From: Methanospirillum hungatei
GTDB taxonomy: Archaea > Halobacteriota > Methanomicrobia > Methanomicrobiales > Methanospirillaceae
Length of the DNA: 64,000 bases
Assembly (NCBI RefSeq): GCF_019263745.1
Contig: NZ_CP077107.1
Span: 3,100,001-3,164,000 of the forward strand
Direction of reading: 5' to 3'
Shown here: piece after piece, positions 3,940 through 11,710 of the stretch
Numbering within the stretch: the stretch's first letter is position 1
How the letters are laid out: each line of letters opens with the position of its first letter
Translations under genes and position numbers: made by a program
Notes under the pieces: generated by a model
Told to the model about the DNA's origin: nothing
What the model saw: only the letters and a program-made list of their open reading frames with translations
Database searches by the model: none

Positions 3940-4051
3940 TAAACTGGATTCAATTACTTTGTCACATATTCATTGGTTTTATGACTTGGGTATAGGACAA
4001 TACCTTTATTCAGGATTATTTATCATCTATGATCAATTACCTGGAGAATGC

Positions 4052-5476
4052 ATGAAAAAATCTAATTTTAAGTATCGCTCAAACCTTTTCATTCTATTAT
4101 GCTTTTTTGTTCTGGTAGGCATCGGAAGCAATGCTACTGCAGATACCATATCCTCTCCGGACGGGAAAGGCTACCGGTTTGAAAAGGACGGGTGGACGTA
4201 CCTCCATATTGAAGGTGCCCCATATGAACGAGGATTCCAGCATGGATATCTGATGGCACCTGAAATTGCTGAAGTTCAGGACACCATCAGGTATCTAACC
4301 TATCATGATACCGGAATGGAATGGGATTATTTTCTTCATGCTGCGAATGAAATGTTCCCAGCACACATCGATGAAGAGTTCCTGACCGAGATGAAAGGAA
4401 TTGCAGAAGGGGCACAGGAGGCCGGAACAAATGTCAGTTTTGAGGAGATTCTTGGGTGGAATGCATACAAGGAACTGACCGGATACTGGTGGCCGACGGT
4501 GAAATCCGAAGCATACAAAAAGATGGAGATTGAAACTGATTCATGTAGTGCATTTATCGCAACTGGGGATTTTACCGAACATGGGGATATTGTCCTTGGT
4601 CATAATACCTGGACAGCATTTGAACGGGCACATTTCTTTGATCTGTTGGCAGATGTTCAGCCTGAAGACGGGAACCGTATCTTCATGCAGACCGCACCAG
4701 GTCTTCTGGATAGCTCTACTGATTACCTGGTGACCAGTGCAGGACTCATGATTGCAGAGACGACGATAAACTCGTTCAATCAATATAAGGCGAATATGTC
4801 TCCTGCTTTTTACCGACTTCGGAATGCTGCACAATATGCAGATAATCTGGATGAATTTGTCTCCATTATGAATACCAACCGGAGCGGCGGGTTTGCGAAC
4901 AGCTGGCTTGTAGGCGATGCCAAAACCGGGGAGATTATGCGGTTTGAACAGGGATTAAAATTCTTCAATGTCACAAAGACAGATAATGGGTATTTCGCCG
5001 GTGCCAACTCTGCTGAAGATCCCCGGATTAGAAATCTTGAGTGTTCAAGTCTTGACCCGACCGATATCAGAACAGGAGTGAGTGCTAGGATGGTCAGGAT
5101 CCCACAGTTAATAGAGCAGTTCAAAGGAAAAATTTCCACTGAAACAGGAAAAAAGATCCTCTCTGATGAGTATGATGTCTGGCTTCAGAAGGAAAACCCA
5201 TCCACCCGGACAGTGAATGGTGTATATTGGCTTGATTCAAATCCCTATCCAAACCGGCCGCCATTTAAACCGATGGGTGCATATGACGGGAAAGTTATGG
5301 ACTCTGAAATGGCGAAAAACATGAGTATAGAGGCCCGGTGGGGATCTCCGTCTGGTAGAGTCTTTGATGCTGATACGTTCCTTTCAGAGCATCCACAATA
5401 TGGATATCTCAAAGGTTACCTCAAATCGTTCCCTACACACTCGTGGAATGTATTTCATGCCGGGGAAAAAGAATAA
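4052..5476 (+). CDS. Secreted phospholipase B-like / C45-type Ntn hydrolase
   Basis: The 474-residue product has a signal peptide (MKKSNFKYRSNLFILLCFFV..., cleavage probably after NATA). It resembles the phospholipase B-like (laminin ancestor) and C45 acyltransferase group of N-terminal-nucleophile hydrolases, which cleave themselves to expose a catalytic Cys. The candidate nucleophile is the Cys in TDSCSAFIATG (around residue 168). Supporting motifs are GHNTW, a PGLLDSSTDY segment and the conserved ETTI, then GGFANSWLVGD. Start ATG 4052 has GGAG five bases upstream; the frame is open further back to 3857 but only into the previous gene. The likely activity is amide or ester hydrolysis outside the cell; the substrate is unknown. 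Assignment to this fold is fairly firm, to one subfamily less so. Confidence 0.75.
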   Translation: MKKSNFKYRSNLFILLCFFVLVGIGSNATADTISSPDGKGYRFEKDGWTYLHIEGAPYERGFQHGYLMAPEIAEVQDTIRYLTYHDTGMEWDYFLHAANEMFPAHIDEEFLTEMKGIAEGAQEAGTNVSFEEILGWNAYKELTGYWWPTVKSEAYKKMEIETDSCSAFIATGDFTEHGDIVLGHNTWTAFERAHFFDLLADVQPEDGNRIFMQTAPGLLDSSTDYLVTSAGLMIAETTINSFNQYKANMSPAFYRLRNAAQYADNLDEFVSIMNTNRSGGFANSWLVGDAKTGEIMRFEQGLKFFNVTKTDNGYFAGANSAEDPRIRNLECSSLDPTDIRTGVSARMVRIPQLIEQFKGKISTETGKKILSDEYDVWLQKENPSTRTVNGVYWLDSNPYPNRPPFKPMGAYDGKVMDSEMAKNMSIEARWGSPSGRVFDADTFLSEHPQYGYLKGYLKSFPTHSWNVFHAGEKE

Positions 5477-8478: not shown

Positions 8479-9228
8479 CTATCTGGATGTCACATCCCTG
8501 GTAACTTCACGGACACATTGCATCATAAAGAAATCTGCTAAATCTCTGGGGCGTTTACAAGGGATCTGAATCTCTTTTATAACGCATGATGGTCTTTTTG
8601 AAAGAATTAAAATACGATCTCCCAGATAGACTGCTTCTTCCGGATTATGAGTTACAATAAAAAACGTTGTTCCAAGTACATCACGAATTCTGATCACTTC
8701 ATCCTGAAGTTCACGTCTGGAAAATGGATCTAGTGCACTGAATGGTTCATCCATAAGGAGAATTTCCGGTTCAATGGCAAGAGCACGGGCAACCGCAACC
8801 CGCTGCTTCATTCCACCTGATAACTGATGGGGAAGGGCATTCGCAAACTCTTCCATGTGTACAAGAGTGAGCAACTCTTTCACTTTTTGTGTAATCTGCT
8901 CATTAGGGATCTTTCGAACTTTCATTCGAAGACCATATGCAATATTGTCATAAACAGAGAGCCAGGGAAAAAGACCATGTTCCTGAAATACCATTGCAGT
9001 GTGAACAGGATCAAAGACATTTCCTTCACTCCCACAGATAGTCCCGGTATCGGCAGATTCGAGTCCTGAAAGGATACGAAGTACCGTTGATTTCCCACAC
9101 CCGGAAGGTCCCATCAGACAGACTATCTCTCCTTTATTTATTACACAGGAGATGTCTGATAATGCTTGAAAATGTGTTTGTTCATTCTGAAACTGTTTTG
9201 ATATTCCTTTTAGGACTAAAACCTGCAT
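8479..9228 (-). CDS. ABC transporter ATP-binding protein (SsuB/TauB/NitD type)
   Basis: This 249-residue ATPase powers the adjacent importer. It has a complete set of motifs: Walker A GPSGCGKST (about residue 41), Q-loop VFQEHGLFPWL, signature LSGGMKQR, Walker B ILLMDEPFSALD, and the switch His in VTHNPEEAV. The family imports nitrate, sulfonates, taurine or thiamin precursors, so the substrate is probably a small organic or oxyanion nutrient. The ATG overlaps the permease stop by one base (TAATG) and is preceded by GGAG, indicating translational coupling. It is the last gene of a three-gene operon transcribed leftward. Confidence 0.93.
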   Translation of the reverse strand: MQVLVLKGISKQFQNEQTHFQALSDISCVINKGEIVCLMGPSGCGKSTVLRILSGLESADTGTICGSEGNVFDPVHTAMVFQEHGLFPWLSVYDNIAYGLRMKVRKIPNEQITQKVKELLTLVHMEEFANALPHQLSGGMKQRVAVARALAIEPEILLMDEPFSALDPFSRRELQDEVIRIRDVLGTTFFIVTHNPEEAVYLGDRILILSKRPSCVIKEIQIPCKRPRDLADFFMMQCVREVTRDVTSR

Positions 9229-9998
9229 TACTCCTTCCCCTGCCAGTTAAAGAGCTTTGTTTGTCCCATTCTGAAGAAATAATCTGCAACAATACCGATC
9301 ACCCCGATGATAATCATACCAGCAACAATGACCTGTATCTGTCCCAGATTATATGCAAACATAATCAGATATCCTAGGCCAGCACTTGTTCCGGGTAACA
9401 TCTCAGCTGCTACAAGACACATCCATGCAACCCCGAATGCCAGACGCAATCCAGTCCAAATTGAAGGTAAAGCTCCAGGAATGACTACCGTTTTGAATAT
9501 TTCTAAGGTCGTGGCTCCAAGAGTCTGTGCAACTTCAAGCCATCGTACCCTGACACTCCTGACTCCTTCAATCGTACTGATAAAGACCGGAAAAAACGAA
9601 CCGATGAAAATAATAAAGATGAGAGAGCCGAATCCAATTTTAAACCATGCAATCGCTAGAGGCATCCAGGCAATAGGTGGGACTGGTCGTAAGATCTGGA
9701 TAATGGGATTAACATAATCCTCTGCAGATTTTGACCACCCACATAAGAGCCCTAAAAATACACCAATTAATACCGCAAGGAAAAATCCATTTAAAACACG
9801 CTGAAGACTGGTGAAACTGTTTTGATATAGTGAAGCCCCACCAAATAATGGGTCAAAAGGGTGAATCAGGACTGGAATGATTGTTTCCCAGCCGGGCAGT
9901 ATGAAACTGTTTTGAATGTATATCGAAAGAACCTGCCAGATTAAGATAATTCCTACAGGTATGGCAAGTCCCTTGATAAATCCATGAAACCGCTTCAT
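9228..9998 (-). CDS. ABC transporter permease (SsuC/TauC type)
   Basis: The 256-residue membrane protein has about six hydrophobic helices, beginning with GLAIPVGIILIWQVLSIYI, and the cytoplasmic coupling loop of binding-protein-dependent permeases in the segment EVAQTLGATTLEIFKTVVIPGALPSIWTGLRLAFGVAW. That loop docks on the ATPase encoded next. The start ATG shares ATGA with the end of the binding-protein gene. Together with its neighbours it forms a NitT/TauT-type importer in the cell membrane. Length and motif spacing are normal for the family, in contrast to the rearranged binding protein upstream. Confidence 0.93.
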   Translation of the reverse strand: MKRFHGFIKGLAIPVGIILIWQVLSIYIQNSFILPGWETIIPVLIHPFDPLFGGASLYQNSFTSLQRVLNGFFLAVLIGVFLGLLCGWSKSAEDYVNPIIQILRPVPPIAWMPLAIAWFKIGFGSLIFIIFIGSFFPVFISTIEGVRSVRVRWLEVAQTLGATTLEIFKTVVIPGALPSIWTGLRLAFGVAWMCLVAAEMLPGTSAGLGYLIMFAYNLGQIQVIVAGMIIIGVIGIVADYFFRMGQTKLFNWQGKE

Positions 9999-11206
9999 AG
10001 TGCTCCAAAACTCGGAAGTCCGTATAGGGAGATTTGTATTCCCTCATATTCAAATGCTTCCCGCATCATTTCTTCCTGAATTGAACTTTGAGGAACAGCA
10101 ATAATTAACGGCTGCCCTGAAAAAGACCGATTTTCCACCCATTCAATAAATGAGTTCCAATCGTCACAGGGAGCCTGATCATCCACAACCAGACCAGAAC
10201 CCCCTGCATTAATAGAATGAATAATCGAAGCAGGATTGCCCATTGATATCTGCATTAGGGTGGGGACACTCCCGATATATGCAACGTCAATCGCTCTCTG
10301 TCCAAGCCCGGTCATAATCCCTCCTCCGACTTGGCCAGGCAGTAACTGAACGTCGGCAACCGGTTTGTCATTGACAATAAGTTGACATTCATCCGGTCGG
10401 TCGGATGTGTCAGATCTTGGTGCAAGACAAAATCCATAGGTTTCACAAATCCTATCAGATTCTATGATTGTAACATATAGAGGAGCATACAGATCAGCAG
10501 AAGGAAGATACCCAATCCGGACAGATGAAGGAGTCTTGGAAATATGTGGTTTTGAGCCATTGAGGAGATCTAAAGCACGTTTGTATACCGAACCAACCGT
10601 ATTTGATGAAGAATGATCTGACATTATATTATCTGACAGGGATTTTTCAATTAAACCTAGATCCGGAAGAGATGCATTATCGGTAAATACAATGTGAGGA
10701 AACGCATTTTTCTCTAACTCAATAGGATCAAGGAAAAGACCTGCTGACCTGATGGGTTTAGAGCCATACACCCATCGTGCGGTAATGTTGACAGCCTCAC
10801 CTGGGTCATCATATATTTTTTGTATTCCGGCAATTGTCACCGCAGACAGGAGGGAGGCAATTTCTGGGTATTCAGTAATAAATGAATTTCGCATTACGAG
10901 AACATTACATGCAGTGTTCTCCCATTTCCTGTCAGGCGGAATATCTGCATCCCTGGCAATTACCTTTCCAATCCCTCCCATCTCTGCCGTCGAGACAACT
11001 GACTCCCACACAAAAAAGGCATCTACCTGGCTGGTATTCAGGAGCTGGGGCATAATTCCTGATGTTCCATATACTATCTGAACCTGGGGCTGGTCAGGAA
11101 TATCCCTTACTCTGTAATTTGAAGGCAACTCGTAAACGAGAACCAGAGATGCTATAATAATTATACAAATCAGGAGAATATACCCTGCCCTCATTCCAAG
11201 TACCAT
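9995..11206 (-). CDS. Membrane-anchored ABC substrate-binding protein with swapped (circularly permuted) lobes
   Basis: Binding protein of a NitT/SsuA-type importer, 403 residues, held outside the membrane by an N-terminal helix (YILLICIIIIASLVLVYEL). Normal members run N-lobe then C-lobe. Here the C-lobe comes first: IMPQLLNTSQVDAFFVWE (about residues 52-69), ERK-free stretch IPPDRKWENTACNVLVMR, then YPEIASLLSAV and the C-terminal helices to about 215. The N-lobe follows: VRIGYLPSADLYAPLYVTI (about 229), VADVQLLPGQVGGGIMTGLG, IDVAYIGSVPTLM, GGSGLVVDD, and AVPQSSIQEEMMREAF, ending ISLYGLPSFGAL. Both ends carry a version of the crossing strand (QVQIVYGTSGIMPQLL and IQISLYGLPSFGAL), as expected after tandem duplication and loss of the outer lobes. 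The frame is continuous, and the gene overlaps the permease by ATGA. Substrate is unknown. Confidence 0.85.
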   Translation of the reverse strand: MVLGMRAGYILLICIIIIASLVLVYELPSNYRVRDIPDQPQVQIVYGTSGIMPQLLNTSQVDAFFVWESVVSTAEMGGIGKVIARDADIPPDRKWENTACNVLVMRNSFITEYPEIASLLSAVTIAGIQKIYDDPGEAVNITARWVYGSKPIRSAGLFLDPIELEKNAFPHIVFTDNASLPDLGLIEKSLSDNIMSDHSSSNTVGSVYKRALDLLNGSKPHISKTPSSVRIGYLPSADLYAPLYVTIIESDRICETYGFCLAPRSDTSDRPDECQLIVNDKPVADVQLLPGQVGGGIMTGLGQRAIDVAYIGSVPTLMQISMGNPASIIHSINAGGSGLVVDDQAPCDDWNSFIEWVENRSFSGQPLIIAVPQSSIQEEMMREAFEYEGIQISLYGLPSFGAL

Positions 11207-11413: not shown

Positions 11414-11710
11414 ATGATGAATATATACACCACGTCATTTCACCCGGACAGTCCTGATGAACCAGTCCCGTGGTATGAAATTGTTGAGAACGAAATTTAT
11501 ACCACCCTCTATCATCCGACTCACCCCCAGGAACCTGTTTCCTGGTTTATAATACGAGAACAGGAGATTTTCACTTCACCAGACCATCCAACACATCCTG
11601 ATGAACCTGTTGCATGGTTTGAAATCAGAAAGAATCTGATATACCCTTCAGAAAACCATCCGACCCATGCGGATAATGATCTGCCCTGGTTTGAGATCAG
11701 AGAGATATAA
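11414..11710 (+). CDS. Small protein made of four 24-residue repeats (HPTHPxEPVxWFEIR)
   Basis: The entire 98-residue product is four tandem units of 24, 24, 24 and 23 residues, with consensus I-Y/F-T-x-x-x-H-P-T-H-P-x-E-P-V-x-W-F-E-I-R-x-x-x. Conserved His, Asp/Glu and Trp residues recur at fixed spacing, which suggests four beta-hairpin-like blades or a metal- or ligand-binding surface. It has no signal peptide or membrane helix, so it is probably cytoplasmic. Regular repeats with codon-level variation show that it is translated and under selection rather than a recent DNA expansion. Start is ATG 11414 or 11417. It stands alone between the ABC operon and htpX, both on the other strand. I do not recognise a named family. 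Confidence 0.8.
   Translation: MMNIYTTSFHPDSPDEPVPWYEIVENEIYTTLYHPTHPQEPVSWFIIREQEIFTSPDHPTHPDEPVAWFEIRKNLIYPSENHPTHADNDLPWFEIREI

Follow-up and report, generated by a model that had tools for sequence, protein, structure and literature searches.

The 64,000-nucleotide stretch of Methanospirillum hungatei DNA analyzed here (the window) contains a gene at 9995-11206 whose product appeared to carry the two halves of an ABC substrate-binding protein in reverse order. Is this protein a circularly permuted member of the NitT/TauT type, and is it used? The first-pass annotation had proposed both, on the strength of an unbroken 403-codon frame and an ATGA coupling to an ordinary permease and ATPase. 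The ORF list of the window contains a single intact minus-strand frame of that length at this position, and the stop codon of the binding-protein gene and the start codon of the permease gene do share ATGA at 9995-9998. The next two genes are similarly tight, base 9228 being common to the permease and ATPase genes (Table 1). Both resemble Sao, Tau, Ssu, and Ntr types in NCBIfam, and the binding-protein gene is thus coupled to permease and ATPase genes of a NitT/TauT system. Its start may lie at 11194, at Met5, since several homologs begin at the equivalent methionine.

Table 1. Features of the permuted binding-protein operon and of the encoded chain (positions in the window; aa, residues of the 403-aa protein)
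Feature	Position	Strand	Evidence
Permuted substrate-binding protein gene, 403 aa	9995..11206	-	ORF, profile matches, AlphaFold pLDDT 87.6, homologs
ABC permease, BPD_transp_1, NitT/TauT/Ssu type	9228..9998	-	Pfam 4.8e-22; best NCBIfam SaoP/TauC/NtrB/SsuC; ATGA overlap
ABC ATPase, same operon	8479..9228	-	Pfam ABC_tran 3.3e-32; best NCBIfam SaoA
N-terminal membrane helix, aa 7-26, probable uncleaved anchor, without lipobox Cys	11129..11188	-	AlphaFold helix 7-26
First strand after anchor, aa 41-46: predicted lobe II second strand, start of permuted body	11069..11086	-	AlphaFold strand; profile ~165 at aa 38
Body part 1, aa 38-197: remaining lobe II and ordinary C-terminal tail	10616..11095	-	Ordinary-order profile 165-321
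Linker, aa 198-226, old C terminus to old N terminus, partly low confidence	10529..10615	-	AlphaFold; alignment gaps
Body part 2, aa 227-397: lobe I and first strand-helix unit of lobe II	10016..10528	-	N-lobe profile aa 227-395; profile 77-165 at aa 294-392
Lobe II first strand and helix, aa 367-387, IIAVP..SSIQEEMMREAFEYE, now C-terminal	10046..10108	-	AlphaFold E367-371, H376-387
Extra terminal strand, aa 391-394, predicted second version of strand aa 41-46	10025..10036	-	AlphaFold E391-394

We compared the protein with models of known binding-protein families. Pfam NMT1_2 (PF13379) matched with an E value of 2.4e-11 (44.4 bits; gathering cut-off, 24.7), and residues 35 to 123 of the protein fell on the end of the model (147 to 230 of 252). 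In the alignment with NCBIfam SsuA_fam (TIGR01728), residues 50 to 144 fell on positions 140 to 229 of 290; the score of 55.1 bits is far under the cut-off of 163.5, and an ordinary paralog from the same genome scores 171 bits. We then used a profile of 331 positions built from 25 ordinary-order homologs only. Residues 38 to 197 of the window protein aligned with profile positions 165 to 321, and residues 294 to 392 aligned with positions 77 to 165, so that the order of the stretches was swapped. When the protein was rotated in silico, they became one match covering positions 77 to 321, the best stretch rose from 54.2 to 91.2 bits, and NMT1_2 matched in a single stretch (37 to 230 of 252; 49.9 bits). 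All 43 further proteins with this permuted layout that were rotated responded like the window protein, with the junction at approximately profile positions 158 to 173, whereas the 25 ordinary homologs lost score in a mirror-image way (for example, from 523 to 247 bits). The match was poor ahead of profile position 77; lobe I of the window clade has diverged, and the gain in score on rotation is therefore smaller than in sister clades.

When one profile per segment was made from family sequences and the two were searched against ORFs in the fetched loci, the C-terminal segment came first in 112 ORFs and second in 5, the latter all relatives outside the family. A single-sequence search of PDB sequences with the window protein returned nothing. 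A profile search of the same sequences returned taurine-, nitrate-, bicarbonate-, and sulfonate-transport proteins, with TauA and 3un6 matched in the same inverted order; the family-profile stretch from body part 1 matched TauA residues 146 to 219. Proteins of the SsuA/TauA/NrtA type have the N-lobe before the C-lobe, and the profile order found here is the inverse. Given the NMT1_2 E value and the 43 proteins that behave alike, the swapped order exceeds chance. The C-lobe-like segment that had been placed ahead of an N-lobe-like segment is borne out by the stretches that fuse on rotation, and the first ~200 residues do correspond to the C-terminal portion of that profile type (SsuA/TauA). The proposed permutation and NitT/TauT-type relationship are supported by both Pfam and the ordinary-order profile. 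We concluded that, at the level of sequence comparison, the window protein is confirmed as a circularly permuted variant of the SsuA/TauA/NrtA type (NMT1_2) and is not a standard member.

An AlphaFold model of the window protein (m162503bd9024), built with 21 homologs, had a pLDDT of 87.6 and a pTM of 0.82 and contained the expected series of strands and helices. The linker region included residues with pLDDT below 50 (189 to 200) and a helix at 200 to 215. Lobes were assigned to elements of the model by sequence correspondence. In the model of the ordinary paralog from the same genome (L156), lobe II runs through a strand (150 to 153), a helix (159 to 170), a strand (180 to 183), a helix, and a strand (200 to 204). 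In the permuted model, the strand at 41 to 46 is followed by a helix at 49 to 57 and then by a strand at 63 to 67. The strand that is single in the paralog (180 to 183) is doubled in the permuted model (41 to 46 and 391 to 394), in agreement with the earlier claim that a version of the crossing strand occurs at both termini. In the predicted structure, the cut falls past the first strand-helix unit of lobe II, and this lobe now carries both termini. The description of the protein as lobe-swapped accordingly needs one correction: the C-lobe part does precede the N-lobe, but the chain was opened within lobe II and not between the lobes. The expected move of the anchor to the other lobe holds, with the N-terminal helix at 7 to 26 leading into a lobe II strand.

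A chain-order Foldseek search of the PDB with the permuted model gave no query TM above 0.30 among the 50 matches listed. These matches were weak and partial (best E value listed, 3.8e-4) and were mostly to glutamate-receptor chains and unrelated binding proteins. As a control, we used the L156 model (pLDDT, 89.6), which matched 3un6, SsuA, and TauA with TM values of 0.82 to 0.86 by target length and E values near 1e-20. The weak result for the permuted model is informative only because this control matches SsuA and TauA. The two-lobed fold with its cleft is probably retained in the permuted protein, as the model suggests. Chain-order structure searches and family models overlook permuted proteins such as this one.

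We next consider how widely the permuted order occurs. The homolog sample comprised 296 genomes of the phylum, 75 from Methanomicrobiales and 221 others. A search for homologs with the same lobe order had been suggested, and such homologs were abundant: 51 full-length collinear matches (441 to 591 bits) in 47 of the 75 Methanomicrobiales genomes. None of the 221 genomes outside the order had a match of comparable score, the next score overall being 84 bits. The loci come from Methanospirillum, Methanoregula, Methanolinea, Methanocalculus, Methanofollis, Methanocorpusculum, and relatives, and some belong to cultured strains. The window gene is under purifying selection (dN/dS relative to the nearest relative, 0.149). 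Judged by its distribution, the permuted family is old, is conserved across Methanomicrobiales, and is a stable natural variant. Two diverged members, L115 (Methanosaeta sp. UBA114) and L114 (Methanomicrobia archaeon), are on contigs that are not labeled as belonging to the order, perhaps as a result of horizontal transfer or binning error. At another locus, L071, the permuted gene is interrupted in its linker, leaving separate ORFs for the C-lobe (3959-4564) and the N-lobe (4561-5178). We rejected the possibility that these are two natural subunits, since the break resembles a frameshift in a single metagenome contig; it is probably a sequencing error or a pseudogene in that assembly.

The family has two branches, one of lipoproteins (clade b) and the other containing the window protein (clade a). 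A lipobox is present in 71 of 72 clade b members. In clade a, the pattern is missing from 21 of 28 members; the other 7 have apparent matches that resemble chance motifs within or next to the transmembrane segment. The predicted N-terminal membrane helix is the probable anchor of the window branch.

The same layout and breakpoint recur in a second, distant clade of permuted proteins (337 to 373 aa), which comes from other families in the phylum and occupies 27 full-length places in 25 genomes. Its loci (L116-L123, L127, L129, L131-L133, and L163-L170) are mostly coupled to permease and ATPase genes, although the flanks of L163-L165, as fetched, contained no match to the permease or ATPase of the window. 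Four of four bacterial plasmid matches to this clade that we examined were of ordinary order. Each permuted clade is monophyletic with full support. Whether a single ancient permutation gave rise to both deep clades or two events occurred at the same place is a refinement of the permutation reading and not a competitor to it. The shared breakpoint (approximately profile positions 158 to 173) argues for a single event, and joining both clades into one was not rejected by the AU test (p-AU, 0.104); against this, ordinary-order rows separate the two clades in the best tree. We lean slightly toward a single event.

A different breakpoint was found in L171 (4371-5456; G069:C93), at profile position 128/129, exactly ahead of lobe II. 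An ordinary gene (L143, 1687-2745) occupies the same place in the single-contig genome of a congener (G048). The flanks of the two genes are collinear, with 71 to 78% DNA identity, and the N-lobe block in L171 has shifted downstream, behind the C-lobe. The stretch at the new junction, SGTPKVKDTVKVGW, resembles the linker ahead of the L143 N-lobe, TGTPGVKDLVKIGW. L171 thus appears to have been permuted recently and independently, at the boundary between the lobes; the arrangement is known from one 220-contig assembly only, where an assembly error is possible. We think it reasonably likely that archaeal NitT/TauT binding proteins have been permuted at least twice, once anciently by a cut in lobe II (position ~165) and once recently by a cut before lobe II (128/129). 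L171 and L143 together may offer a near-intermediate for studying how permutation arises.

The route to the permuted gene was probably tandem gene duplication followed by trimming of both ends. Such a process would link the old C terminus to the old N terminus and open new termini at the second beta-strand of lobe II, and a doubled terminal strand is what it would leave. Duplication with loss of the outer lobes had been proposed for this gene; the doubled strand fits, and we found no tandem-duplicated intermediate. Alternatively, halves from two different binding proteins may have been fused, converging on a two-lobed layout. Lobe I of the window clade is less like the ordinary profile than lobe II, and a similar acquisition has been suggested for TpMglB-2 (PMC4990184). 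However, in both the sister lipoprotein clade and the second clade, both halves point to one ordinary family, and rotation merges them into a single match that continues across the junction. We therefore consider a fusion improbable and retain permutation of a single ancestral protein.

With regard to function, we consider it very likely that the window protein is the working, membrane-anchored binding protein of a NitT/TauT (SsuABC/TauABC-like) importer encoded by three genes and that its chain was permuted long ago. The anchor would lead straight into lobe II rather than lobe I. A single cleft between the two lobes would close around a small solute, probably anionic or sulfonate-like, and the bound solute would be handed to the ordinary permease/ATPase pair. 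From the family and the biology, our guess for the substrate is a sulfonate, with coenzyme M and taurine as examples. The frequent conserved neighbors in the 98 loci, beyond the ABC genes, are GatD/GatB-like and ribosomal L10e-like as judged by eye, and a scan of these neighbors for a substrate clue gave no metabolic hint beyond such housekeeping-looking genes. A permuted protein could also have ceased to be a transport binder and serve instead as a tethered sensor, say, or as a domain that regulates the transporter. The window clade, which has lost the lipobox and has a membrane helix, and the distant members L163-L165, with no match to the permease or ATPase of the window in their fetched flanks, might suggest this. 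The tight translational coupling to the permease and ATPase genes is nevertheless kept in most loci, with a co-directional ATPase gene in 80 of 98 and a permease gene in 64 of 98. This agrees with the earlier view that the permuted protein is probably used, and we regard loss of the binding role as unlikely. A mis-assembled or chimeric window with a true gene of ordinary order, for which one could cite paralogs of ordinary order in this genome and elsewhere in the taxonomic order, was rejected as having almost no chance of being correct, since the 112 ORFs come from many independent assemblies, the isolates Methanocalculus chunghsingensis and M. taiwanensis and several single-contig genomes share the permuted order across Methanomicrobiales, and clade support is 100/99.

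Circularly permuted binding proteins are a favorite engineering approach for biosensors; to our knowledge, few natural ones have been described. The window protein resembles SsuA/TauA/NrtA-type proteins in that both halves match and the operon encodes a BPD permease and an ABC ATPase, and the ordinary paralog from its own genome is predicted to fold as SsuA and TauA do. It differs in being permuted inside lobe II, in scoring under the TIGR01728 cut-off, and in having no chain-order structural match among the PDB matches listed. TpMglB-2 (Tp0684) is a permuted glucose-binding protein for which "Type Ic / Cluster Bc" was proposed, and its authors suggested that tethering might favor permutation (PMC4990184). 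Like the window protein, it is a natural, clade-conserved permutation of a tethered ABC binder that is still two lobed (PMC4990184). However, TpMglB-2 is a bacterial Type I/Cluster B sugar binder with three N-lobe strands moved to the C terminus, and fold class, breakpoint, and organisms all differ. MglB was absent from the profile-search matches to PDB sequences, which gave no sign of a Type I/Cluster B relationship. Permuted glycine-betaine-binding proteins (2B4L, 1R9L, and 1SW1) were found by CPSARST (PMC2395249) and include an archaeal example (1SW1, A. fulgidus ProX). That family belongs to Pfam OpuAC and the window protein to NMT1_2; no OpuAC (PF04069) match to the window protein was reported at an E value of ≤10.

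The first-pass annotation had called the architecture rare. It is not a one-off, since it characterizes an order-wide family and a second clade, and its rarity is relative, permuted binders having been published (PMC4990184, PMC2395249). In the literature searched, we found no report of permutation in SsuA/NitT-type, archaeal, or methanogen binding proteins, which does not prove absence. Natural permutation of binding proteins is thus already known, and its occurrence in an SsuA/NitT-type protein of methanogens is new as far as we found. The family is large, belongs to an ecologically important order of methanogens, and occurs in genomes whose ordinary-order paralogs permit side-by-side tests. 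The route of permutation (duplication and trimming), the survival of the fold and cleft, and any effect of an anchor on the other lobe on docking to the permease are all testable. Adjoining the operon, on the plus strand of the window (11414-11710), is a 98-aa ORF made up of approximately four tandem units of ~25 residues of the form IYTTxxHPTHPDEPVxWFEIRE.
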